From Cloacibacterium caeni (lineage in GTDB: Bacteria; Bacteroidota; Bacteroidia; Flavobacteriales; Weeksellaceae): DNA of 64,000 nt. Of the stretch, positions 35,244 through 63,644 are shown piece after piece (the stretch's first letter is position 1; each line of letters opens with the position of its first letter). The notes under the pieces are model-generated. The model made no database searches. It was given only the letters and a program-made list of their open reading frames with translations, and was not told where the DNA came from. The DNA lies in NCBI RefSeq assembly GCF_907163105.1, contig NZ_OU015321.1:2612501-2676500 (forward strand). Direction: 5' to 3'. The position numbers and the translations under genes were made by a program.

Positions 35244-35319
35244 GTTATATAAACGCTCAAATTATTTTGGGCGTTTTTTTATTTTGGAGCAAAAAGATTT
35301 GTAATTTTTTTGAAAATTC

Positions 35320-35388
35320 AGTCCCGCTTTTCGCTTTATTTTTTTCTTTTTGAAAAAAGAAAAAGGATGTCGCTTCAATCGGGGCTAC
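35320..35388 (-). repeat. modular palindromic repeat, copy e
   Basis: On the minus strand: TAGCCCCGATTGAAGCG, an A/T stem, then AAGCGAAAAGCGGGACT. It has the same outer arms as copy d in opposite orientation. The rest of the gap 35216-35550 is AT-rich with no gene seen. Confidence 0.65.
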
Positions 35389-35550
35389 AATTCACTTTTC
35401 GGTTTTTGTTTGAAGATTTAAAAATTTTGAAAACAATCATTACTCACTGATTTATATTGAGTTTGCAGAAATGCTCAAATTAAAAATTCATAAAATATTT
35501 TATCTTTGAATTAATGTGATTTCTGAAATCTTACATCTAAAATCAAAAAA

Positions 35551-46734: not shown

Positions 46735-47131
46735 GGGGTTGACTGGTTTCGACAGCAAGACCAATGGGTAAGTAAGCATGCAGAGAACCGTAGCGCGATC
46801 TCTTTAATCCCTTGCTACAGAATTTAACTGGCAACGAAGAGTTTGCTCTTGCTGCTTAATCCGAAGCTTAGTAGGATTAGCGTTTTTCCCGAAGTATAGT
46901 AAGGAAACAAGATGTCTCCCGAAAGTTCTGTTCTGCGACGTTCGATTCCGAGGCATAGAAAATGCGGAAATAAGTCCCGAAAAACTTCGGTTCGGGAACG
47001 AAAATTTTAGAAGATAAGCGTAAAGTTGGCTGTTTGCTGTCTGCTTTATGACGAAAACCAATAGCAAAATAAGCATGTAGAAAGCTTGCGTATTGCTTGT
47101 TTGGACGAGGGTTCGAATCCCTCCAACTCCA
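46735..47131 (+). ncRNA. ssrA: transfer-messenger RNA (tmRNA)
   Basis: The 5' end GGGGTTGACTGGTTTCGACA and the 3' end GGTTCGAATCCCTCCAACTC are the tmRNA hallmarks. GGGGTTG (46735-46741) pairs with CAACTCC (47124-47130). CCA is not encoded. The tag frame at 46830-46859 reads GNEEFALAA then stop, with the usual ALAA degron end. It rescues stalled ribosomes, as does arfB in this window. The T-loop end is a favoured attachment site for integrative elements, and a decayed recombinase follows. Confidence 0.97.
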
Positions 47132-47134
47132 CTT

Positions 47135-51790: not shown

Positions 51791-52357
51791 TTACTTTTCT
51801 CTAAAGTGAATTTTTTTTGAAAAGTAAGCAATTGTACTTCCATAAAAAATTCCCAAGAATGCTGCCACAATAACATCCGTAGGATAATGAACACCGTTGT
51901 AAATACGGCTGTATGCAACCAAAACAGCCCAGCAGACTAAAACATATTTTAGCCAATTATATTTTCTTGGTAGCAAAAAGATTAGGAATGTTGCTAAGCC
52001 AAAAGCGTTGGCAGAGTGAGACGATATAAAACCATACTGACCACCTGGTCCTGCTTTGCTTAAATGTATCAAATTTTCGAGAGATGGTTCATGTGATGGT
52101 CTTAGTCTTTTGAACGCATTTTTTATAAGATGAGATGCGGTCTGGTCACAGATCGTGATCAGAAAAGCAATTGCCAAAAGTACGTAAGCACTTTTCTTTT
52201 TAAATTCTCTCATAATGATATACAAAAGAAAAGTATAAAATGGTATCCAAAACAGTTTATCACTTGCCCAATACATGATCGGATCAAAAAATGAATTGTG
52301 CTTTCGGTTTATAAAAAGAAAAAGCTGAGTGTCGAGTTGGTTTATATTTTCGAGCAT
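51791..52357 (-). CDS. PAP2-family membrane phosphatase
   Basis: A 188-aa protein with about five helices. The three PAP2 motifs are present: KNAFKRLRPSHEP, ISSHSANAFGLA and YSRIYNGVHYPTDVIVAAF. It resembles undecaprenyl-diphosphatase or lipid phosphatases. It lies 41 bp after the EamA gene at the end of the fluoride operon; a link to fluoride is not evident. Confidence 0.85.
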   Translation of the reverse strand: MLENINQLDTQLFLFINRKHNSFFDPIMYWASDKLFWIPFYTFLLYIIMREFKKKSAYVLLAIAFLITICDQTASHLIKNAFKRLRPSHEPSLENLIHLSKAGPGGQYGFISSHSANAFGLATFLIFLLPRKYNWLKYVLVCWAVLVAYSRIYNGVHYPTDVIVAAFLGIFYGSTIAYFSKKIHFREK

Positions 52358-52398
52358 AGTAATGTCTTAATAATGAATATTTTAAGTTGTTGTTATTT

Positions 52399-52821
52399 TT
52401 ATTTGAGAGTCAATATTAATATTCCCCCGATGATCATAAAACCGCCCACAGCAATTTTCCAGGTAAATTGCTCGTTTAGGAAGAAAAAGGAAAGAGCCAG
52501 CGTAATAATTATACTTCCCTTGTCTATTAATGCTATTTCTGAAACATTACCCACCTTCATTGCCCTGTAATAGAATATCCACGAAATTGTGGTCGTAATT
52601 CCCGAAAATCCCAGCAATAAAATATCTTTTTTGGTAAGATTTGAAAAATCTTTGGCGTTATTAAATGCGAATATATTGAGCCAAATTAGAAAAAACACAA
52701 ATGAAGTCCGGACAGCCAAACCTGTATCTGATGCAACATTTTTCAGTCCTGCTTTTGCTATGACTGAGGTTAAACCTGCAAATATCATCGAAATGATGGC
52801 GAAAATTTGATATTGTTTCAT
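52399..52821 (-). CDS. single-domain EamA-family membrane protein
   Basis: A 140-aa protein with four to five helices and one EamA domain (SEIALIDKGSIIITLALSFFFLNE near the end). Half-size EamA proteins work as dimers. The substrate is unknown. It starts 85 bp after the enolase stop and may be co-transcribed with the fluoride genes. Confidence 0.8.
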   Translation of the reverse strand: MKQYQIFAIISMIFAGLTSVIAKAGLKNVASDTGLAVRTSFVFFLIWLNIFAFNNAKDFSNLTKKDILLLGFSGITTTISWIFYYRAMKVGNVSEIALIDKGSIIITLALSFFFLNEQFTWKIAVGGFMIIGGILILTLK

Positions 52822-52906
52822 AAAGTGTTGTGTGAGAATATGTGATATTAAAAGGCTAACTTTTTAGTATTGAAATTAGCCTTCAATAAATTTGATATTT
52901 TGTGTA

Positions 52907-54181
52907 TTATTTAAACGCTTTGATTCCCGCAAACTTTGCTGCACTTCCAAGCTCCTCCTCAATTCTCAATAGTTGATTGAATTTTGAAACCCGCTCACTT
53001 CGGCAGCCACTTCCTGTTTTCAAATGCCCTGCACCAACTGCCACTGTCAAGTCGGCGATTGTTGTATCTTCTGTTTCTCCGCTTCGGTGCGAGATAAAGC
53101 AGTTGTAATTGTTTTTATAGGCCAGGTCAATCGTTTCCAGAGTTTCTGTAACGGTTCCAATTTGATTTAATTTTATCAAAACAGAGTTTCCAATTTTTTG
53201 GTCAATGCCTTCCTGTAGAATCTTTGGATTCGTACAGAAAATATCATCTCCCACCAGTTCTACTTTGTTTCCTAATCTCTCCGTCAATTGCTGCCAGCCT
53301 TTCCAGTCATTTTCTCCAAGACCGTCTTCCAACAAAACAATCGGATATTGTGATGTCCAGCTTTCCCAAAGTTCAATCATCTGTTCACTTGTTTTTTGTT
53401 CTTTGGTGCTTTTGAAAAATTCATATTTGTCATTGTTCCACATCTCACTTGTTGCAGGATCTAAGCATAACGACACATCTTTTCCAGGCGTAAAACCGGC
53501 TTTGGTAATCGCTTCTAAAATGACATCAACGGCTTCTTCATTGGATTTTAGATTTGGTGCAAATCCTCCTTCATCGCCAACTCCTGTGTAATATCCTTTT
53601 CCCTTTAAAATTTCTTTTAAGGTGTGGAAGACCTCTTCACCCATTCGAATACTCTCCTTAAAGTTTGGGGCATTGTGTGGTGCAATCATAAATTCCTGAA
53701 AATCGATATTATTGTCAGCGTGTCTTCCGCCATTGATCACATTCATACAAGGTACAGGCATGGTATATGTTGATTCATCCCTGAATTGTCGGTACAGTGG
53801 GATCTTGTTAAAGGCAGCTGATGCTTTGGCATAAGCAATGGAAACTGCTAAAATGCCATTTGCACTGAGATTAGATTTGTTGGGCGTCCCATCCAACGAG
53901 ATCATCAAGGCATCTACATCACTCTGCAGTAGTATCTCTTTCCCGACCAATGCGTTCGCAATAATGGTATTGACATTATTGACAGCTTTTGAAACACCTT
54001 TCCCCTGATAGCGTGCTTTATCGTTATCTCTTAATTCCACGGCTTCCTTTTCGCCTGTGCTTGCACCGGACGGAGATATGGCTCTGCCCGTAAACTCACC
54101 ATTGATGTTAATCTCTGCTTCAACTGTCGGATTTCCTCTGGAATCGAGTACTTCTCTTGCGTGTACTTTTGTAATTTTCAT
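52907..54181 (-). CDS. eno: enolase (extra copy in a fluoride operon)
   Basis: A 424-aa enzyme that interconverts 2-phosphoglycerate and phosphoenolpyruvate. All catalytic residues are seen: [17 protein letters not shown], the three metal ligands in LCLDPA, LLEDGL and [23 protein letters not shown] and KTGSG. Enolase is the classical fluoride-sensitive enzyme. Here it follows the ClC-F and DUF190 genes by 17 bp behind a fluoride riboswitch, so it is probably a second, fluoride-induced copy. Base composition appears richer in G and C than the core genes. Whether it tolerates fluoride is unknown. Confidence 0.96.
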
Positions 54182-54198
54182 AATATTTTTTGATTTAT

Positions 54199-54561
54199 TT
54201 AGGTGAATAATATTTCAGAACTGGGTTGAACAAGTATTATTTTAGCTTGTTTTAAAAGGTCTTTATTTAATTTTAAAAATTGGTTGATTTTATTTTCGTT
54301 ATCAATAAGCTCAAGGCAGGCAGGATTCTTCAAAGCAGGAAGCTCCGAAATATTGTAGGAAATATTTTTATAATTCAGATAACCCGATTTAGCAATGAAG
54401 ATATTCGCTTGCTCTATGTTACTTTCCCTGGCTTTTTTCAATAGAAATTCGCCCAGAGAATTGTTCCATAACCTTTTCCAAAACGATTGATCTTTTACAG
54501 ATGCTCCGTATTCGAAATAAATCCTTACGATCACCGTTGATTTGTTTTCCATTGCGTTCAT
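54199..54561 (-). CDS. DUF190 family protein
   Basis: A 120-aa soluble protein of the PII-like DUF190 fold: [40 protein letters not shown] and the final [16 protein letters not shown]190 genes often accompany fluoride exporters of the CrcB/Fluc type. Its start codon directly follows the ClC stop (TAAATG), so it is translationally coupled. It may be a regulator of the transporter; the mechanism is unknown. Confidence 0.75.
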
Positions 54562-55875
54562 TTATTTGTTTTCGTTTATATTTCTTCCGGACTGGTTCTG
54601 AAATCTGGAATGTTTTGCTTCCCCGATGACCTGTTTTCCATAAATGCTGTTATGACCTGAAATTAAATATGATACCACGCAGGCAATGGCCATATAGATC
54701 CCGCTTTCAGCTCCGAAGAGTTCTATTCCCATCAGCATACAGGCGAGTGGTGTATTGGTTGCCCCTGCAAACACTGCCACAAATCCCATTCCTGCCAAAA
54801 GTCCTGTCGGCAAAGGGATAAATAAGGATAAGGCACTTCCTAAAGTAGCGCCGATAAAAAATAAAGGCGTTACTTCGCCACCTTTGAATCCTGCTGCAAG
54901 TGTGATAATGGTAAAGGCCATCTTCAATGCAAAATCGTAAGGCGGTAACTGCTGCTCGAAAGACTGAACAATGGTCGGAATACCCAATCCGATATATTTC
55001 GTGGTTCCCATTGCAAACACAGCGACGGCAACGATGATCCCTCCTACAAAAGGACGGAGCGGCGGAAAAGATATTCTGGATTTGAAAAAAGAAGTTACGT
55101 AATGGATGACCTTGCTAAAGGTCGCCGCACAAAGGCCGAATAAGATCCCTGCCAGTATACTGTAGATGATCGGTAAGGCTTCCAATTGGGGAACAAGGTC
55201 GATATGATAATGGGTGTGTTTAACCTGCCAGAGGTTAGTGACCAGGTCTGCCAGTATTGCTGAAGCAAACGCAGGAAATATCGCATCATATTTTATTCTT
55301 CCTATCAGAAATACTTCGAGACCGAACAAGGCACCCGCCAAAGGTGTTCCGAATATAGAACCGAAACCTGCTGAAATTGCCGAGATCAGCAGTATTTTAC
55401 GCTCAGGTTCAGTTAGTCTGAAAGGTTTTGTGAATTGATCAGCGATTGCTCCCGCCATCTGCAATGCCGTTCCCTCTCTACCTGCGGAACCTCCAAAAAA
55501 GTGGGTTGCAATCGTTCCTAAATAAACAAAGGGTGCCATCCTGAAAGGAATAATTTCCTTTGGATTGTGGATGCTGTCAATCAATAAATTATTTCCAGCC
55601 TCAATATCCTTCCCCAGATAATTGTAAAGCAAGCCGATTAACAGACCTGCAATTGGCAGAAAAGCAATGAGCCACAGATGATTCTCCCTGAAATTCGTAG
55701 CCCAGTCCAGTGATACCAGAAAACCTGCCGAGGCAGACCCTACACAGATCCCAATGATGGAACTGATTAAAAACCATTTAACGATGTATGGGAGAGTAGG
55801 GTATTTACGGAAAAAGATCTTTGTGTGAAGCTGAGCTGCTTTGCTGTTGGATCTAAAATGCTGATTTTTGGACAT
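54562..55875 (-). CDS. ClC-family antiporter, fluoride (ClC-F/EriC-F) type
   Basis: A 437-aa protein with the 18-helix ClC layout. In place of the chloride-selectivity motif GSGIP it has GNNLL (residues 94-98), and the gating-glutamate motif is GREGT (132-136) rather than GREGP. As I recall, these changes mark the fluoride/proton antiporter clade. The fluoride riboswitch immediately upstream gives independent support. It is first in the operon, coupled to DUF190. It removes fluoride from the cytoplasm. Confidence 0.9.
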   Translation of the reverse strand: MSKNQHFRSNSKAAQLHTKIFFRKYPTLPYIVKWFLISSIIGICVGSASAGFLVSLDWATNFRENHLWLIAFLPIAGLLIGLLYNYLGKDIEAGNNLLIDSIHNPKEIIPFRMAPFVYLGTIATHFFGGSAGREGTALQMAGAIADQFTKPFRLTEPERKILLISAISAGFGSIFGTPLAGALFGLEVFLIGRIKYDAIFPAFASAILADLVTNLWQVKHTHYHIDLVPQLEALPIIYSILAGILFGLCAATFSKVIHYVTSFFKSRISFPPLRPFVGGIIVAVAVFAMGTTKYIGLGIPTIVQSFEQQLPPYDFALKMAFTIITLAAGFKGGEVTPLFFIGATLGSALSLFIPLPTGLLAGMGFVAVFAGATNTPLACMLMGIELFGAESGIYMAIACVVSYLISGHNSIYGKQVIGEAKHSRFQNQSGRNINENK

Positions 55876-55910
55876 AATTTACCTGATTAAATGTGTTAAC
55901 ATTGTCTAAT

Positions 55911-55966
55911 CAGGCGTCATCAGCTTTTTTAGGGCGGTTGGGTAAGGAAGAGCACCATTTCCTTTC
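55911..55966 (-). promoter_or_regulatory. fluoride (crcB) riboswitch
   Basis: On the minus strand: AAGGAAATGGTGCTCTTCCTT, then CCAACCGCC, then GCTGATGACGCCTG, the crcB-motif hallmarks. P1 is formed by AAGGAA/TTCCTT. The pseudoknot pairs GGTG (55956-55953) with CGCC (55916-55913). The last two C of CGCC also start CCTGATTA (55914-55907), which can instead pair with TAATCAGG (55889-55882) carrying the AGG ribosome-binding site, 6 nt from the ATG. This suggests translational control: fluoride binding frees the site. Confidence 0.9.
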
Positions 55967-55968
55967 AA

Positions 55969-55976
55969 CAAATGTA
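55969..55976 (-). promoter_or_regulatory. -7 box of the fluoride operon
   Basis: TACATTTG (minus strand) fits TAnnTTTG and would start transcription at about the first base of the aptamer. The -33 element is not convincing. Confidence 0.5.
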
Positions 55977-56025: not shown

Positions 56026-57057
56026 TCAGGGATAATACTTTTTCTTCAGCCACAAACTAACCCTTACCAATAAAATTAAAACAGGTACTTCCACAAGAGG
56101 ACCGATGACCCCTACAAATGCTTGTGAGGAATGAATTCCAAAAACTGCTATAGCAACAGCAATCGCTAATTCAAAATTATTTCCAGTCGCTGTAAAAGCA
56201 ATAGATGCATTTTTGTCGTAGGGTACTTTCAATGCCTTACTAATGAAAAAGCTGATGAAGAATGTAAGAACAAAGTAAATTACTAATGGTATTGCAACTT
56301 TAACAACGTCCATTGGTAGCTCTAAAATTTTGTCTCCCTTCAAACTGAACATCAATACGATTGTAAACAGCAAAGCATACAAAGTAATAGGTGAAATAGC
56401 CGGAATGAATTTCCTATTGAACCACTCTTTTCCTTTTAATTTAATCAAGAAGTAACGGCTCAAAAATCCTGCAATAAATGGGATCCCTAAATAAATGAAT
56501 ACACTCTCGGCAACATCTTTCATTGGTACCGCAATGTTAAAATTTCCTAAGCCTAGTTTTTGTGGTAATACATTAATAAAAAGCCAAACATAAAAACTAT
56601 AAAACACCAATTGGAAAATACTGTTTAATGCGATTAGCAGAGCTGCGTACTCCCGATTACCTTTTGCTAGATCGTTCCAGACAATGACCATTGCAATACA
56701 TCTTGCTAAACCGATCAAAATTAGACCAATCATATAGTCTGGCTCATCTCGTAGAAAAATGATAGCTAATACAAACATTAAAATAGGACTGATAATCCAA
56801 TTGAGTAGCAATGATACCGACATTACCTTTTTGTCTTTAAAAGCCATTGGTAATAGACTATAATCTACTTTTGCCAAAGGTGGATACATCATTAAAATTA
56901 AACCTATTGCTAAGGGAATATTAGTTGTTCCGACAGACAAAGAATTTGTGACAGTAGAAATATCAGGAAAGAAATATCCTAACCCAACGCCCAAAAGCAT
57001 TGCTAAAAAAATCCATAGGGTAAGAAAGCGGTCGAGGAATTTTAATTTTGGTTGCAT
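56026..57057 (-). CDS. arsB: Acr3-family arsenite efflux transporter
   Basis: A 343-aa protein with ten helices. [20 protein letters not shown] (with the essential cysteine), [15 protein letters not shown] and [18 protein letters not shown] are Acr3 signatures. It extrudes arsenite. It is the last gene of the arsenic operon and starts 3 bp after the H-protein stop. Named arsB in the Acr3 sense (also acr3). Confidence 0.95.
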
Positions 57058-57060
57058 CTT

Positions 57061-57438
57061 CTAATTATTTAGTTGAGCGTATTGTTCCGCTGTTAATAAA
57101 TTTTCAGTTTCTCTCAGGTCTTCAATTTCAATTTTCACCATCCAGCCATTATCAAATGGATTAGAATTTACAAGCGTTGGCTCTTTTAAAAGTTGCTCAT
57201 TGGTTTCAATTATTTTCCCTGAAAGAGGCATAAATAGGTCGCTGACGGTTTTAATGGCTTCTACAGAACCAAATACTTCGTCTTGTTTGAAATTATGATT
57301 AACATTAGGTAAGTCAACATATACGATTTCTCCCAATTCCTTTTGAGCAAATGCTGTAATACCGACCGTTGCAGTTTTGTTCTCAATACGAACCCAAGTA
57401 TGTTCTTTTGAATAATGTAGATCTTTTGGAAGTTCCAT
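57061..57438 (-). CDS. gcvH: glycine-cleavage H-like lipoyl protein in an arsenic operon
   Basis: A 125-aa complete H-protein. KELGEIVYVDLP, FGSVEAIKTVSDLFMPLSG (with the lysine that carries lipoate) and NPFDNGWMVKIEI are all conserved. Lipoate is a dithiol and a prime target of arsenite. The gene is embedded between a phosphoesterase and Acr3, apart from any gcvT/gcvP. It may replace poisoned H-protein, bind arsenite, or have another lipoyl role. A TTG start 18 bp upstream is possible; the ATG is preferred. Confidence 0.9.
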   Translation of the reverse strand: MELPKDLHYSKEHTWVRIENKTATVGITAFAQKELGEIVYVDLPNVNHNFKQDEVFGSVEAIKTVSDLFMPLSGKIIETNEQLLKEPTLVNSNPFDNGWMVKIEIEDLRETENLLTAEQYAQLNN

Positions 57439-57456
57439 TTTTTTAGATTTTAACAA

Positions 57457-58230
57457 TTAATAGCCACGTCTTAGATTTTCTGCATACTCGTTTGGAAGAG
57501 GGCTGTCTTCCACTGCCTTTGCTGCCTTTTCAAAGTCATAGTCGAAGCGGATAAATTCTACACTGATGCTTTCTTTGTTCAAAACAGAACTGTTTTCATC
57601 AACTGTCAACATCACATAACCACCTCTAATATCATTGTCTTTCGGCTTCCCAACGGAACCGATATTTACTGCGTGACGAAAATGATCTTGTCCATCAATA
57701 CCCGAATTTAAAACTCTATGATATGGTTTGTGTGTATGTCCGAAACACATAATGTCGGCATCGGCTTGTTCCATAATACGAAGCATACTTTTTTCTTCAC
57801 GGTCTTCGAAAAGATATTCATTTATTTTTCTCGGACTCCCGTGTACCAAAAGCAGGTTCAGTTTGTCTTCGTTCAGTTGAAATTCTACTTTTATATGTGC
57901 TGGAAGTGTGCGCAGGTACGCCCTTTCATCATCTTTCATCAAAGAATTGGTAAAAGAAATGGAAATATTTCCGTTGTCCTTCTCAGCGTCTGTTTTGTAG
58001 GCGCAACCACATTCATTACTCATTCTCCCAATGCCAAAATCGTAGTTGCCAGCAATACTTGGTATTTTTCTTTTACGGATTTCATTGACCACTTCGTTTG
58101 GCCAGATATTGTAACCAACTAAATCTCCCAAACAATAAATGCTGTCGGGATTTCTTTTTTCAACATCTGCAAAGAATGCTTCTAATGCAGGGAGATTAGC
58201 GTGAATGTCGCTGAATAATGCAATTTTCAT
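57457..58230 (-). CDS. metallophosphoesterase in an arsenic operon
   Basis: A 257-aa calcineurin-like phosphoesterase. FSDIHANLPA, LGDLVGY, GNYD (for GNHD), LVHGSPR and FGHTHKPYH are the metal-binding blocks. A cysteine pair (ECGCAYKT, after residue 70) is unusual and could sense or bind metals. It ends 18 bp before the H-protein ATG and starts 1 bp after the ArsO-like gene. The substrate is unknown. Confidence 0.88.
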   Translation of the reverse strand: MKIALFSDIHANLPALEAFFADVEKRNPDSIYCLGDLVGYNIWPNEVVNEIRKRKIPSIAGNYDFGIGRMSNECGCAYKTDAEKDNGNISISFTNSLMKDDERAYLRTLPAHIKVEFQLNEDKLNLLLVHGSPRKINEYLFEDREEKSMLRIMEQADADIMCFGHTHKPYHRVLNSGIDGQDHFRHAVNIGSVGKPKDNDIRGGYVMLTVDENSSVLNKESISVEFIRFDYDFEKAAKAVEDSPLPNEYAENLRRGY

Positions 58231-58231
58231 T

Positions 58232-59293
58232 TTATTTATTTTTATTTAAGAATTCTTCTATTTCAATTATTGTTTGTTTTGCAGATCTGTTTATACCAAT
58301 TAATGTTGCAGATGCGTAGCCTGTCCAGTTACCATAGCCAACAAACCATAAACCTTCCATTTCCAAAGATCTGCTATCTGTGGTTTTAGCGATACCTCTT
58401 TCATCTATACGGACGATTGATCTTAAGTAGGCGGTGTCATAACCAAAGCCTGTGCACCAGACAAAAGCATCAAACTCTTCTGAATTTCCATCATCCCATA
58501 CCACGCCTTGATCATAAATTTTATGAAATGAACCGCTTGAAACTAAAACGCCTCTTTTCTGAGCTTCTTTAACAGGAGGAACCATAACGATATTTCCTAA
58601 ATTGTACTGCGATGCATCAAAGGGTTTTCCTTCTTTTTCCGCTTTGTATTTCGCTGACGCAACATTAAATAGGTAATAACCATCTACATTGTCTGGAAGA
58701 AATTGAGGTTCTCTTTTTGTAGACCATTTTGTTTCAGTAAATCTTGAAACTTCAGCTACAATCTGTGCACCGGAATTCCCTTCACCAATGACTAAAGTTT
58801 TCATTCCTATAAAGTTCTCTGGATTTTTGTAGTTTCCGGAATGAATTTGTATTCCCTTAAAACTTTCGATGCCATCTATGTTTGGAATAGTAGGGTTTCC
58901 CCAGGTTCCGGTTGCTGAGATAATTGACTTAGCTTTTATAGTGTTCTGTTGTATATCAACGATAAAAAAATCTCCATTTTTTTTGATATTATTAACCTCA
59001 AATCCCCGTCTTATATTCAGCTGATAGTGTGCTTCGTATTGCTGTAAGTAATTTATTACTTCTTGCTTAGGAGGAAATTTATTTTTAGATTTCGGCATCG
59101 CCCAGCCAGGCAAGGAACTGTAATCGGCTGGTGAAAAAAGGGTTAGACTGTCCCAAGTATGAAGCCAGGCACCTCCAGATATATTTTGTTTATCCAATAT
59201 TACATAATTCAGTTTAGCTCTTCTCAAATAATATCCGCAGGCTAAAGCGCTTTGTCCTCCTCCAATAACAACGACGTCGTATATTTCATCCAT
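58232..59293 (-). CDS. arsO: ArsO-like flavin monooxygenase
   Basis: A 353-aa FAD/NAD(P)H oxidoreductase. FAD site VVVIGGGQSALACGYYL at the N-terminus; NADPH site LVIGEGNSGAQIVAEVS in the middle; FVWCTGFGYDT near the end. It belongs to the group named ArsO in arsenic operons, whose exact reaction is uncertain. It lies between DUF6428 and the phosphoesterase genes. Confidence 0.8.
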   Translation of the reverse strand: MDEIYDVVVIGGGQSALACGYYLRRAKLNYVILDKQNISGGAWLHTWDSLTLFSPADYSSLPGWAMPKSKNKFPPKQEVINYLQQYEAHYQLNIRRGFEVNNIKKNGDFFIVDIQQNTIKAKSIISATGTWGNPTIPNIDGIESFKGIQIHSGNYKNPENFIGMKTLVIGEGNSGAQIVAEVSRFTETKWSTKREPQFLPDNVDGYYLFNVASAKYKAEKEGKPFDASQYNLGNIVMVPPVKEAQKRGVLVSSGSFHKIYDQGVVWDDGNSEEFDAFVWCTGFGYDTAYLRSIVRIDERGIAKTTDSRSLEMEGLWFVGYGNWTGYASATLIGINRSAKQTIIEIEEFLNKNK

Positions 59294-59345
59294 TAATCTT
59301 TGGTTTTGATTATTTTATAATGGCAGATTAGTGAGTAAATTATGT

Positions 59346-59819
59346 TTAGCAGCAACCTCCGCCAGGCGTACAAGAACTGTTTTGGTTTACACCAAGTTCA
59401 ATTAGATTCTTTTTTTCTTTTTCTGATGGGATTCCGCAAGCATCCTGTGCTAAACAAGCTGTAGTTTTATTTTTTAGAATAAATGTTTTCCCATTGAATT
59501 CTAGATCATATTTTCCAATAGTATCACTCTGATATTCCACTTCAATATCGAAATCCTCGATTCCTAATTTATCCTCGGAAAGTTTGATAATGTTGAGTAA
59601 TTTGTTAGGCTTCAGACGATGTTCAAAATCGTCTGCATTCCAAAGCTGGAAATTGACAACCTTCTCTGAACGGATGACACCGCCACAATCAATAAAGTTT
59701 TTATTGATCATTCCTACTTCCGTAACGTGAAAATGTTCCGGAACAAAAGTTCCATTTTCTAATTGGAATTCAACATTTTCTAATGTTGGTAAAATTTGTT
59801 TTATTTCTGATAATTTCAT
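59346..59819 (-). CDS. DUF6428 arsenic-operon protein
   Basis: A 157-aa soluble protein starting MKLSEIKQILPTLENVEF, with FVPEHFHVTEVG and FIDCGGVIRSEKVVNFQLW. I recognise this as the DUF6428 family commonly found in Bacteroidetes ars operons. The C-terminus has cysteines (AQDACGIPSE and SCTPGGGCC) that could bind arsenite. The upstream TTG start is rejected in favour of the ATG. Confidence 0.75.
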   Translation of the reverse strand: MKLSEIKQILPTLENVEFQLENGTFVPEHFHVTEVGMINKNFIDCGGVIRSEKVVNFQLWNADDFEHRLKPNKLLNIIKLSEDKLGIEDFDIEVEYQSDTIGKYDLEFNGKTFILKNKTTACLAQDACGIPSEKEKKNLIELGVNQNSSCTPGGGCC

Positions 59820-59842
59820 AATTAAATGCTTATAGGTTAAAT

Positions 59843-59862
59843 GCAATATTGCGATATATTAA
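59843..59862 (-). promoter_or_regulatory. second ArsR-type operator between arsR and DUF6428
   Basis: The minus strand carries ATCGCAATATTGCA. The same word (ATCGCAATATTACA) is found on the plus strand at 60221-60234, over the arsR promoter. GCAATATTGC is a perfect 10-bp palindrome. Confidence 0.45.
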
Positions 59863-59875
59863 GGTAAAAAAACGC

Positions 59876-60202
59876 TTAACAGCATTTTGATTTGGTAACA
59901 GTTTGTACTATTGCGGAAAAATAAGTGTTGAGAATTTCGATGGTCTTTTCGTCTATACAATAGCAGATAGCGTTTCCGGAAATGTTACCTTTTATGATCC
60001 CGGCATTTTTCAGTTCTTTCAAATGCTGAGAAACGGTAGGTTGAGCTAAGGGTAATTCATTCACGATGTCGCCACAGATACACTCATTGACTTTCATCAA
60101 ATACTCAATAATAGCTATTCTGGCAGGATGCCCTAATGCTTTTGCAATAGTTGCAATTTGATTTTGCTTATCTGTAAAATGTTCTGTTTTAGTAGCTCCC
60201 AT
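59876..60202 (-). CDS. arsR: ArsR-family metal-responsive repressor
   Basis: A 108-aa winged-helix repressor. The DNA-reading helix is ELPLAQPTVSQHLKELKNAG. Cysteines in ECICGDIV and at the C-terminal KCC may bind arsenite. It heads the arsenic operon, which runs arsR, DUF6428, ArsO-like, phosphoesterase, H-protein, Acr3. Arsenite binding releases DNA and induces the operon. Confidence 0.93.
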   Translation of the reverse strand: MGATKTEHFTDKQNQIATIAKALGHPARIAIIEYLMKVNECICGDIVNELPLAQPTVSQHLKELKNAGIIKGNISGNAICYCIDEKTIEILNTYFSAIVQTVTKSKCC

Positions 60203-61027: not shown

Positions 61028-62176
61028 TTATCTTCTTAATTTTCGCTTCTTTTTCCAGAGTGCATCTTCGTCCTGAGAAACATAGGTTGGATTAAGGAAG
61101 TCACTTATTAATCCGCCTGCAATATCTATTAAGCTTTCATTTGGGTCTGATTTCAGATGATTACTTGCATCATTATTTACACTATTTTGACTTAATGATT
61201 TTACCAGATCATCCAGACCAGAATCTATTGCTGACAGAGAGAACCCGACATTTTTCCGAAAAAAGAATCCGTTTTTCTCTTGACTATCACCAATTTTATT
61301 TATCCAGAAATCTTGAATTTCATTTTTTTGACCGGCTTTAAATTCTCCTTTGTATTGGATCTTTACAGAAATTCCTTTTTGTTGTATAATTTTTCGAAAT
61401 CCCTCTATGTTGCCAGCGTCTTTTTGTGCTTCCTTGACCGCATTTTTCATTTCAAACAGAGATTTTATTTCAGAAATTTTCAGTTGATTTGAGATTTCAG
61501 ATAATTTGTAACCAGCTTTATAAATCCTTTCGGTATGAAAATTTTTGTCTTTTTCCATCACAATTCGCATTCCCGAAATCCCGTCTTTGATATTTGAAGA
61601 CAATTGAATTTCAAAACCTTTTTTATTCATTTCTGAGATCAGATCATCAAAATTATCTTTTGACCTAATAGCTTCGGTCAAGCTTTTCAGCATCTCAGCT
61701 TTTTTCTGAATTCCAATTTCTATATCAGTCAACAATCCTCTTTCCTTGCAAACTTCTCTGACAGCATCACCAAATCTCTTTCCGATATCGTGTGATTTCA
61801 CAGTGCAATTTCCCGAAATATCAATCCTGTTTACGACAAAATGAATATGCTTATGTTTTGTACTATTGTGAATATCCAATCGGTACTGATTTTTGTTTGT
61901 CACTCCAATTTTATCTAAAGCTTTGGTGGCGATTTCTGCGAATTCTTCATCCTTCAATTTTCTACCAATTTCGTCCGGTTGAGAAATGTAGCCTGTCAAT
62001 GCCCATTTCTTTACTTTGGTATTTCTTTCAGCTACAGTTTTCATTTCGTGAAATTGACCTTCAGCAGTGTCACTCAAAAGATAATTCGAAGCCACCATTT
62101 CTGATGTTCCTTTATCGTTTGCATTGTATTCCAAAGCAATTTTTGTAATGGATCTGGTGGTTGCTGAATTATTCAT
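61028..62176 (-). CDS. relaxase/mobilisation nuclease
   Basis: A 382-aa MOB-type relaxase. The N-terminal domain has SNYLLS (candidate catalytic tyrosine, residue 32) and the HUH-type metal site KHKHIHFVVNRID (residues 107-119). It nicks DNA at oriT and leads it into the recipient. The start overlaps the MobC-like gene by 8 bp. Confidence 0.9.
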   Translation of the reverse strand: MNNSATTRSITKIALEYNANDKGTSEMVASNYLLSDTAEGQFHEMKTVAERNTKVKKWALTGYISQPDEIGRKLKDEEFAEIATKALDKIGVTNKNQYRLDIHNSTKHKHIHFVVNRIDISGNCTVKSHDIGKRFGDAVREVCKERGLLTDIEIGIQKKAEMLKSLTEAIRSKDNFDDLISEMNKKGFEIQLSSNIKDGISGMRIVMEKDKNFHTERIYKAGYKLSEISNQLKISEIKSLFEMKNAVKEAQKDAGNIEGFRKIIQQKGISVKIQYKGEFKAGQKNEIQDFWINKIGDSQEKNGFFFRKNVGFSLSAIDSGLDDLVKSLSQNSVNNDASNHLKSDPNESLIDIAGGLISDFLNPTYVSQDEDALWKKKRKLRR

Positions 62177-62618
62177 TTTTCTGAATTTTTGAATATAAAT
62201 ACTGATGAATCAATTCGATCAAATTTTCGATTTTCACTAAAATCTCCTTCTTGTTTTCGAAAACATTCCATTCCCGATTTCGTAAAAGATTGGTTATTTT
62301 TTTGAAATGAGTCCCATACTGCAGTAAGACTTCATCAGTTTGAAATTCATTGATTTTTAGTTCTTTTTCGAACAAAACATTTCGGATATAGGTTGATAAT
62401 TTGAACGGATGTTTTTCTTGTTTTTGAATGAGAGTTTCGTATTCGGAATTGGTCATTCGTATTGAAATAACTTTATCAAGTTTTTTGTTTTCTTTAGTTT
62501 TCAAACCGCCTTTCCTACCTAGTTCCTGGAAATATTTTTTTCTCTTTTCCTGAGCAATCTTCGTTTCATTTTCTTTGGCAACTTCGTATATGAATTCTTG
62601 TAAAAAGTCTTTTTCCAT
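62169..62618 (-). CDS. MobC-like ribbon-helix-helix relaxosome protein
   Basis: A 149-aa protein. The basic N-terminus is followed by a ribbon-helix-helix (VISIRMTNSEYETLIQK...KLSTYIRNVLFEK). MobC proteins bind oriT and assist the relaxase. It overlaps the relaxase gene and is preceded by an oriT-like inverted repeat. Confidence 0.82.
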   Translation of the reverse strand: MEKDFLQEFIYEVAKENETKIAQEKRKKYFQELGRKGGLKTKENKKLDKVISIRMTNSEYETLIQKQEKHPFKLSTYIRNVLFEKELKINEFQTDEVLLQYGTHFKKITNLLRNREWNVFENKKEILVKIENLIELIHQYLYSKIQKNE

Positions 62619-62684
62619 TGTGTAAATTTTATTGTATTTAAAAACATTTCTGACGATAGGAAGAAATCAAAAATCCCAATTTTG

Positions 62685-62706
62685 CAATCAGCGGATACGC
62701 TTATTG
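62685..62706. other. candidate oriT stem-loop
   Basis: CAATCAGCG GATA CGCTTATTG is a 9-bp inverted repeat with one mismatch, in the 147-bp space upstream of mobC and the relaxase gene. This is where oriT normally lies. The nick site cannot be placed. Confidence 0.45.
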
Positions 62707-62765
62707 TAAACTTTGGGTACTTTTTGCACTAACATATCACCATATTTTACCTGTGTTTATTTTAC

Positions 62766-63644
62766 TCACCTTCTCCTTTGTTTGACTTGTCTTTCAAGTG
62801 ATGGGTTTTTATGAATCATCCAATCATTTAAGTCTTTAAAATCTGAATATAAAACCCGACAATCTTCTACATTTTTGTTTTCATTTTTAATCATTTCAAT
62901 GCCACGATCTCCTGCTTCATCATTGTCAAAATAAAGCTCAATATTTTCATAATTTTCGATTGAATTTTTAATCTTAGAAATCATCGAAACGGAATTCAAA
63001 ATGAGATAATCTGAAAGTTCTTTTTGTAAAAATTTCTCTACATTTTTAAAGGAAAGAAAATCGAAAAACCCCTCGAAGACCCGCAGCGATTCTGCTCCAT
63101 TTTGTATAGTAGAAATGTCTTTTTTACCCAAACAAATTTTAGAGTATTTATTACGGATTTCATAACCGCCAGAATCGTTCTTGAAACCAATTCCAAAATA
63201 GTTTTTATCTTTCATTCGGTAATGAATTTCGTGTAAGAACTGAGTTTGATTTCCAACTTTTCTTTCTCTTAAATATTCCAAAAGCGAAGGATGCTGAACG
63301 TTTTTAATTTCAATGATTTCATATTGTTTAGATAAATTTTCTGCTTTCTGATTTGAAATACGTTGCTGTTGAAAAGAAGAAAAACTCTGCTTCTCAACCC
63401 ACGCTAAAACTTCATTGACCGAAGCGTTCAGGTATTTCTTCATAAAGTCGGTACTGGTTCCACCAATTCCTTCTGAAAACAGATACCAATAGTTTAGGCT
63501 TTTATTGATTTTAAAAGAGGCTTGGGATTCGTTGGCAAAGGGGTTGAGATACCAAGCTTCTTTTTCATTTTGTTTCGTTGGAAGGTGTCCGAGAGAAAGG
63601 AGGACTTCTTCCAACGGTATGCTGTTGAATTGTTTGCAGTTCAT
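62766..63644 (-). CDS. Toprim-domain primase-like protein
   Basis: A 292-aa protein. The N-terminal region resembles a CHC2 primase zinc domain (PLEEVLLSLGHLP...FKINKSLNYWYLFSEGIGG), but the zinc cysteines are absent. The Toprim domain has FEGFFDFLSF and ELYFDNDEAGDRGIEMI. It is typical of Bacteroidetes mobilisable elements, where it is thought to prime replication of the transferred strand. Confidence 0.82.
   Translation of the reverse strand: MNCKQFNSIPLEEVLLSLGHLPTKQNEKEAWYLNPFANESQASFKINKSLNYWYLFSEGIGGTSTDFMKKYLNASVNEVLAWVEKQSFSSFQQQRISNQKAENLSKQYEIIEIKNVQHPSLLEYLRERKVGNQTQFLHEIHYRMKDKNYFGIGFKNDSGGYEIRNKYSKICLGKKDISTIQNGAESLRVFEGFFDFLSFKNVEKFLQKELSDYLILNSVSMISKIKNSIENYENIELYFDNDEAGDRGIEMIKNENKNVEDCRVLYSDFKDLNDWMIHKNPSLERQVKQRRR

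Follow-up and report, generated by a model that had tools for sequence, protein, structure and literature searches.

Operons that combine a fluoride riboswitch with a fluoride exporter and a spare enolase have already been described in other bacteria (PMC11139923, PMC5533749, both cited here for the parts of their text available to us), and enolase is, together with pyrophosphatase, an accepted target of fluoride (PMC11139923). In the genomic island GI3 of Enterobacter cloacae FRM, the enolase transcript increased 176-fold with fluoride, and a role as a spare enzyme was proposed for this copy (PMC5533749). An arrangement of this kind lies in the stretch analysed here, the window from now on, which covers 64,000 nucleotides of Cloacibacterium caeni (assembly GCF_907163105.1, contig NZ_OU015321.1, positions 2,612,501 to 2,676,500). 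A first inspection of its letters, which we call the sequence-only reading, had noticed a riboswitch-led fluoride operon; our analysis confirms this observation and partly supports the interpretation given to it. We read the locus, with a probability of roughly 0.72, as a resistance operon that fluoride induces and that travels as the cargo of a mobilizable element; it would provide CLC-F export, an extra enolase and a spare PAP2 phosphatase, with EamA as a passenger. The predicted exporter, switch and spare enolase are the parts that we regard as secure at the level of sequence.

The operon runs entirely on the minus strand, from an RF01734 aptamer through ClC, DUF190, enolase and EamA to PAP2, separated by gaps of 0 (ClC/DUF190), 17 (DUF190/enolase), 85 (enolase/EamA) and 41 bases (EamA/PAP2). 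Gene calls and the Pfam and TIGR01060 matches agree with the order, the complete enolase and the small gaps first read from the letters, and all five proteins score above the curated Pfam cut-offs, DUF190 being the weakest. The sequence-only reading mentioned neither the strong hairpin inside the 85-base gap nor the apparent mobile element around the operon. The features are as follows:

55971-55904, minus strand: RF01734 fluoride aptamer (41.7 bits against a gathering score of 34, E 3.6e-08)
55881..55915, minus strand: predicted expression platform, an 11-bp pairing between the aptamer 3' end and the sequence before the start codon
55875-54562, minus strand: putative CLC-F type ClC protein, 437 amino acids (PF00654, 248.7 bits; filter motifs; PDB 6d0j)
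54561-54199, minus strand: DUF190 protein, 120 amino acids (PF02641, 28.2 bits, cut-off 23.4)
54181-52907, minus strand: enolase of the fluoride-linked clade, 424 amino acids (TIGR01060, 641.3 bits)
52888-52846, minus strand: strong hairpin and possible attenuator in the enolase/EamA gap (-12.7 kcal/mol, z -5.85)
52821-52399, minus strand: EamA transporter-like protein with a single EamA domain, 140 amino acids (PF00892, 65.5 bits, cut-off 28.2)
52357-51791, minus strand: PAP2 phosphatase, 188 amino acids (PF01569, 83.1 bits)

The crcB-motif aptamer that had been proposed directly before ClC is thus recovered by the covariance model above its gathering score. Its 3' end, GCCTGATTAGA (55915-55905), base-pairs over 11 base pairs (bp) with TTTAATCAGGT (55891-55881), a segment that stops five bases short of the ClC ATG at 55875, and none of 200 shuffles gave an equally good pairing. 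The comparison covered 107 riboswitch loci: 62 from the family (60 wide regions of 114 listed places, some of them weak on purpose, plus the short locus L004 and the window) and 45 more from across the phylum, 43 above the cut-off and two below it, with one place above the cut-off (in G072) belonging to neither set. Stems of 6 bp or more that begin at the same conserved CCT were seen in 57 of 60 core-bearing family loci (62 examined), 55 of them with p ≤0.05, and phylum-wide in 28 of 44 loci (45 examined). The letters of the two arms vary in places, as in Pedobacter, where CGCCTACAATA pairs with TATTGTAGGTG. Since no T run follows the stem in the window, control would be exerted on translation, and we predict a translational ON switch, which is OFF without fluoride and ON with it. 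When no fluoride is present, the 3' strand of the aptamer would pair just ahead of the ClC start codon and block translation, and fluoride would stabilise the aptamer and free the ClC start.

As for the exporter, the sequence-only reading had pointed to GNNLL and GREGT in the ClC protein; both are present in the translation together with GEVTP, and all three are motifs tabulated for fluoride-type proteins (PMC5100911, in the part available to us). The best matches among solved structures are CLC-type fluoride/proton antiporters (6d0j, 2.3e-60), with the chloride CLC 1kpl far behind (2.9e-11). Filter motif and nearest structure support the assignment as a CLC-F type fluoride/proton antiporter, as had been proposed, and on the same grounds we rejected a chloride channel as the identity of this protein. 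Fluoride export by CLC-F proteins is known for the family, and the window protein would export fluoride once translated. Regarding its neighbour, a profile of nine proteins, distant ones included, matches PDB entries 1o51 and 2dcl, both DUF190 structures.

The enolase of the operon is not the only copy in the genome, an alternative that was discarded with the finding of a second enolase (G000:C1:1998628-1999491), 52% identical to the first. Of 33 enolases placed in a tree, the 18 with a fluoride-linked label group in a single clade (support 98/96) and the 11 with a housekeeping label lie on the opposite side, so that fluoride-linked enolases form a clade of their own, separate from the housekeeping copies in those genomes; many rows were picked by their closeness to the window enolase, which favours a single-clade outcome. 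In ten genomes the two sides are represented by one enolase each (G000, G123, G172, G176, G534, G608, G668, G740, G811 and G696), the clade copy of G696 not being linked to fluoride genes. Among the 18 fluoride-linked rows, three (a Lentimicrobium metagenome-assembled genome (MAG), L163 and G740) have fluoride neighbours with no leading riboswitch shown, and another one, G649, sits on a long branch. A family-wide enolase profile found 11 riboswitch-led runs with enolase; nine of these are in the tree, all within the clade, and the other two (Pedobacter L212 and L213) are represented there by L183, which shares their first 70 residues. An enolase located upstream of a riboswitch (G916) falls outside the clade. 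In G636 and G830 a single enolase was found, in both cases of the clade type. No match to ClC, CrcB, DUF190 or pyrophosphatase was obtained near the clade enolases of G696 and G830 or near the second copy of G762, nor did the riboswitch scan give a match in L218, with L220 and L221 lying outside that scan. Altogether the clade type, taken at E 1e-185, occurs in 11 of 395 Bacteroidota genomes. As a separate observation, the sole enolase found in G636 sits in a fluoride riboswitch run (L219).

The catalytic motifs that were checked in the operon enolase are unchanged. Because of this, we prefer to speak of an extra copy and not of a replacement: from the proposal that the operon exports fluoride and supplies a replacement target, export and a spare copy are supported, and 'extra copy' takes the place of 'replacement'. 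On the other hand, 19 positions separate the clade (21 rows) from the enolases of the housekeeping side (12 rows), and several are close in sequence to the catalytic motifs, such as C239 (two before D241), C316 (after GDD), L338 (after K337) and C393 (before RSER). These positions would fit a fluoride-tolerant isoform, and not merely an added dose of enzyme, a possibility that we consider rather unlikely given the intact motifs and the occurrence of the same type as the only enolase found in G636 and G830. According to the reading as an extra copy, this enolase, coming from a lineage that travels with fluoride genes, would sustain lower glycolysis while fluoride inhibits enolase. Such a deep lineage offers a natural comparison for the question of whether an enolase can become tolerant to fluoride.

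The last gene of the operon, PAP2, is a probable fluoride gene, to judge from its neighbourhoods in other genomes, and in this respect the suggestion that the two last genes may be new fluoride-linked functions gains comparative support for PAP2, whereas EamA does not stand out. PAP2 appears in riboswitch-led blocks of five families (f1, f3, f17, f31 and f49). It is the first gene after the riboswitch in Pedobacter and in G668, it follows enolase directly, with no EamA between them, in the Chryseobacterium relatives G172 and G123 and likewise in G176, and it comes after DUF190 in Empedobacter. In G534, the riboswitch leads crcB, pyrophosphatase, enolase, ClC, DUF190, two PAP2 genes, an MFS-like gene (named by reading) and a universal stress gene. 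Moreover, an Enterobacter plasmid carries a different PAP2, with an undecaprenyl-diphosphatase model as top match, in the interval between two fluoride riboswitches. A wider set of 62 PAP2 loci was gathered from a scan of named genomes (61 loci) and the Adhaeribacter plasmid; ClC, DUF190, enolase, CrcB or pyrophosphatase was found near PAP2 in 38 of them and none of these in 24, proportions that are not a fair sample because the query of the scan (A1) was built from PAP2 proteins near fluoride genes; Pedobacter contributes 16 of the 38, with loci that closely resemble one another. A scan of 38 genomes or records, selected from the 62 loci and with coordinates converted by hand, placed a riboswitch ahead of the PAP2 block and on its strand in 18, for 17 of which the sequence was read and for the remaining one a core position. 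In a PAP2 tree of 62 rows the fluoride label changes 9 times, against 19.5 for shuffles, that is, it is clustered and not exclusive; only this coarse result is used, the Pedobacter rows standing on a very long branch. In the open-licence literature, as far as its available parts go, we found no published link between PAP2 and fluoride.

Some further neighbourhoods were noted along the way. Sixteen Pedobacter loci (L183-L198) share a similar PAP2-EamA-enolase-ClC block with the aptamer core at a constant distance before it, and Rfam confirmed the aptamer in all six that were scanned. A housekeeping-type PAP2 adjoins CrcB (Pfam CRCB) in another family (L135:8055-9411 and L136:8049-8992, the genes of the latter overlapping by 4 bases), and similar PAP2-CrcB neighbours were seen by tblastn in L175 and L181.

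When counted over the 107 riboswitch loci, PAP2 lies within 8 open reading frames (ORFs) downstream of the riboswitch in ten and within 8 upstream in none (Fisher p 0.0008), a value that overstates the evidence because some of the counted loci had supplied proteins for the PAP2 profile, near-copies inflate the counts, 7 of the 107 loci are riboswitch matches under the gathering score, there were 692 upstream ORF slots against 761 downstream, and two of the ten matches (L045 and L046) are remote or outside the run. A family-level Fisher value of 0.055 rested on a guessed total of 24 families and is not used. Besides these weaknesses of the count, several observations weigh against our reading. 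The family riboswitches mostly lead ClC with neither enolase nor PAP2, and both enolases of G762 lie within the fluoride-linked clade. The window PAP2 falls below the curated equivalog cut-offs (SepP 63.1 against 250, PRK11837 41.5 against 229), and we rejected it as a member of a named equivalog for that reason. All 16 Pedobacter PAP2 copies are without motif 3 in frame, which would make this motif dispensable there, and PAP2 relatives of about 65% identity in L127 and L128 have sugar-transferase-like genes as neighbours, and neither a fluoride gene nor a riboswitch was found there. Finally, the hairpin between enolase and EamA may separate EamA and PAP2 from the riboswitch.

The window PAP2 itself keeps its motifs complete (KNAFKRLRP at 79, SSH at 112 and SRIYNGVHYPTD at 150), according to the motif definitions of the family, and a paralogue 45% identical exists elsewhere in the genome. 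Motifs 1 and 3 are both kept in 22 of 38 fluoride-linked PAP2 loci against 23 of 24 others. With respect to its substrate, undecaprenyl-diphosphatase models are among the NCBIfam matches of the window protein, and our guess is a role in undecaprenyl-diphosphate recycling: it may serve as a reserve phosphatase of the membrane, its substrate most likely being undecaprenyl diphosphate or a lipid phosphate like it, and would keep the recycling of the cell-wall carrier running under fluoride. PAP2-type phosphatases need no bound metal, and this genome has one BacA gene. A stronger version, in which lipid-carrier recycling would be fluoride-sensitive and PAP2 would act as a fluoride-switched bypass of the metal-dependent UppP/BacA, recruited at least two times (in Bacteroidota and on enterobacterial plasmids), is in our opinion unlikely. 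An LpxE-like action on lipid A or another outer lipid, which would reduce the need for the Mg/Ca bridges that fluoride would remove, is also unlikely in our opinion. LpxE is indeed the best profile match of the window protein among solved structures (7.9e-11), the operon PAP2 of L126 weakly matches NCBIfam LpxE (1.2e-4) and the relatives in L127 and L128 lie beside genes that look GT9-like (names given by reading only). Nevertheless, the window protein matches the undecaprenyl-diphosphatase models and lacks NCBIfam LpxE among its matches up to 0.001, and the enterobacterial PAP2 scores highest with an undecaprenyl-diphosphatase model. If PAP2 truly belongs to the fluoride regulon, cell-envelope lipid recycling may join enolase and pyrophosphatase as a fluoride target.

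EamA is the weak link of the operon. In a comparison that was not chosen by EamA, it occurs downstream of 3 and upstream of 2 of the 107 riboswitches, and the relatives G123, G172 and G176 have enolase and PAP2 with no EamA between them, so it was rejected as a fixed member of the fluoride set and would be an optional passenger. C. daeguense has the protein at 100% identity, and a MAG has it at 91%, there located after PAP2. EamA is also found near PAP2 or enolase in Pedobacter, the Lentimicrobium MAG, Adhaeribacter and the Spirosoma linguale plasmid pSLIN02, in which a riboswitch precedes ClC-DUF190-UspA-enolase. The terminator scan, limited to loops of up to 8, did not report the hairpin at 52888-52846, which has identical letters in C. 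daeguense (L139). A plasmid of Adhaeribacter swui (L137, NZ_CP055154.1) shows a riboswitch-eno-ClC-DUF190-crcB run facing a cluster of EamA, PAP2 and RND genes, and it also carries further PAP2 genes and a vanadium haloperoxidase.

Around the operon, the following features were recognised:

46735-47134: transfer-messenger RNA (tmRNA) gene (RNA family scan)
47110..47132, plus strand: left att-like repeat in the tmRNA 3' end (21 of 23 bases, blastn-short E 0.082)
56026-60202: arsenic cluster directly upstream of the operon (ACR3, glycine cleavage H protein, metallophosphatase, FMO-like protein, DUF6428-like protein, ArsR)
61028..63644, minus strand: relaxase, NikA-like and primase-like genes (Pfam Relaxase 81.3, NikA-like 37.8, Toprim_2 46.9 bits)
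67699-67721 in window numbering, outside the window: right att-like repeat beside a tyrosine integrase, 20.6 kb downstream
L290:2827-4068, outside the window: integrase (Phage_integrase, 46.7 bits)

The two att-like repeats enclose the relaxase, NikA-like and primase-like genes, the fluoride operon and the arsenic cluster, and most likely the operon is mobile cargo with exchanged parts, on a mobilizable element inserted at the tmRNA gene. In Chryseobacterium gregarium, 4.6 kb of the left part of the element are found at 98.8% identity, with a relaxase that is 100% identical and a fluoride part that is 91% identical and lacks EamA; in C. daeguense a fluoride-arsenic block of 8.4 kb is present twice, at 96.8%. 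The near-identical parts in C. gregarium count as indirect evidence for excision and transfer of the element. A near-mode search with the operon DNA gave no match among plasmids. The element suggests that fluoride and arsenic resistance move together between genera. The same neighbours raise the question of whether EamA and PAP2 are hitch-hikers, that is, general metal or envelope resistance genes that collect on the mobile islands of fluoride and arsenic genes and do nothing against fluoride, as the arsenic genes directly upstream, the hairpin before EamA and the count of 3 against 2 for EamA would suggest. In this line, EamA adjoins metal-efflux RND and two-component genes on plasmids of Emticicia and Fibrella. 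However, these islands are not clean counter-examples: on the former, a fluoride riboswitch and ClC lie about 17 kb before EamA, and on the latter an annotated chloride channel gene is located three genes before it, with no riboswitch match in that stretch. Moreover, PAP2 is found inside riboswitch-led runs of several families, first after the riboswitch in two, and never upstream, and an unrelated PAP2 subfamily occurs in the enterobacterial fluoride cluster. For the pair, hitch-hiking appears rather unlikely, and we keep the reading of PAP2 as a probable fluoride gene with EamA as an optional passenger.

Other genes of fluoride runs were noticed on the side. Six genomes, each of a different family, have dynamin-like GTPase genes in a riboswitch-led run (L211, L215, L216, L217, L219 and L238), with Dynamin_N confirmed by Pfam in L211, L215, L217 and L219; we did not meet them in the available parts of the fluoride literature. 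Proteins with a CYTH domain, possible triphosphatases, are present in two such runs (L215:5338-5832 and L216:10743-11285). Elsewhere in the window, at 35316-35390, there is a Flavo-1 RNA (RF01705, 70.4 bits), which is not known to have a function.

Compared with the systems described before, the window ClC shares its filter motifs with the riboswitch-controlled CLC-F antiporters and has one of them as its closest structure (6d0j; PMC5100911, in its available part). PAP2 has the family and motifs of the PAP2-type undecaprenyl-diphosphatases (YbjG, SepP, BcrC-like) and remains below their equivalog cut-offs. The GI3 operon of E. cloacae FRM resembles the window in its fluoride riboswitch, extra enolase and exporter and in its location on a genomic island with mobile genes, but it carries ppaC, uspA, gpmA, crcB and orf5249 where the window operon has CLC-F, DUF190, EamA and PAP2 (PMC5533749, as far as the available text goes). 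The fluoride-stress gene set of PMC11139923 also includes enolase in riboswitch operons and names phosphatases as a response class; in the main text of that paper DUF190 and EamA have 0 occurrences, and PAP2 did not turn up, with no search aimed at PAP2. The enolase clade, the association of PAP2 with fluoride genes, the predicted translational switch and the mobilizable carrier are what this locus adds to the known core of riboswitch, exporter and spare enolase.

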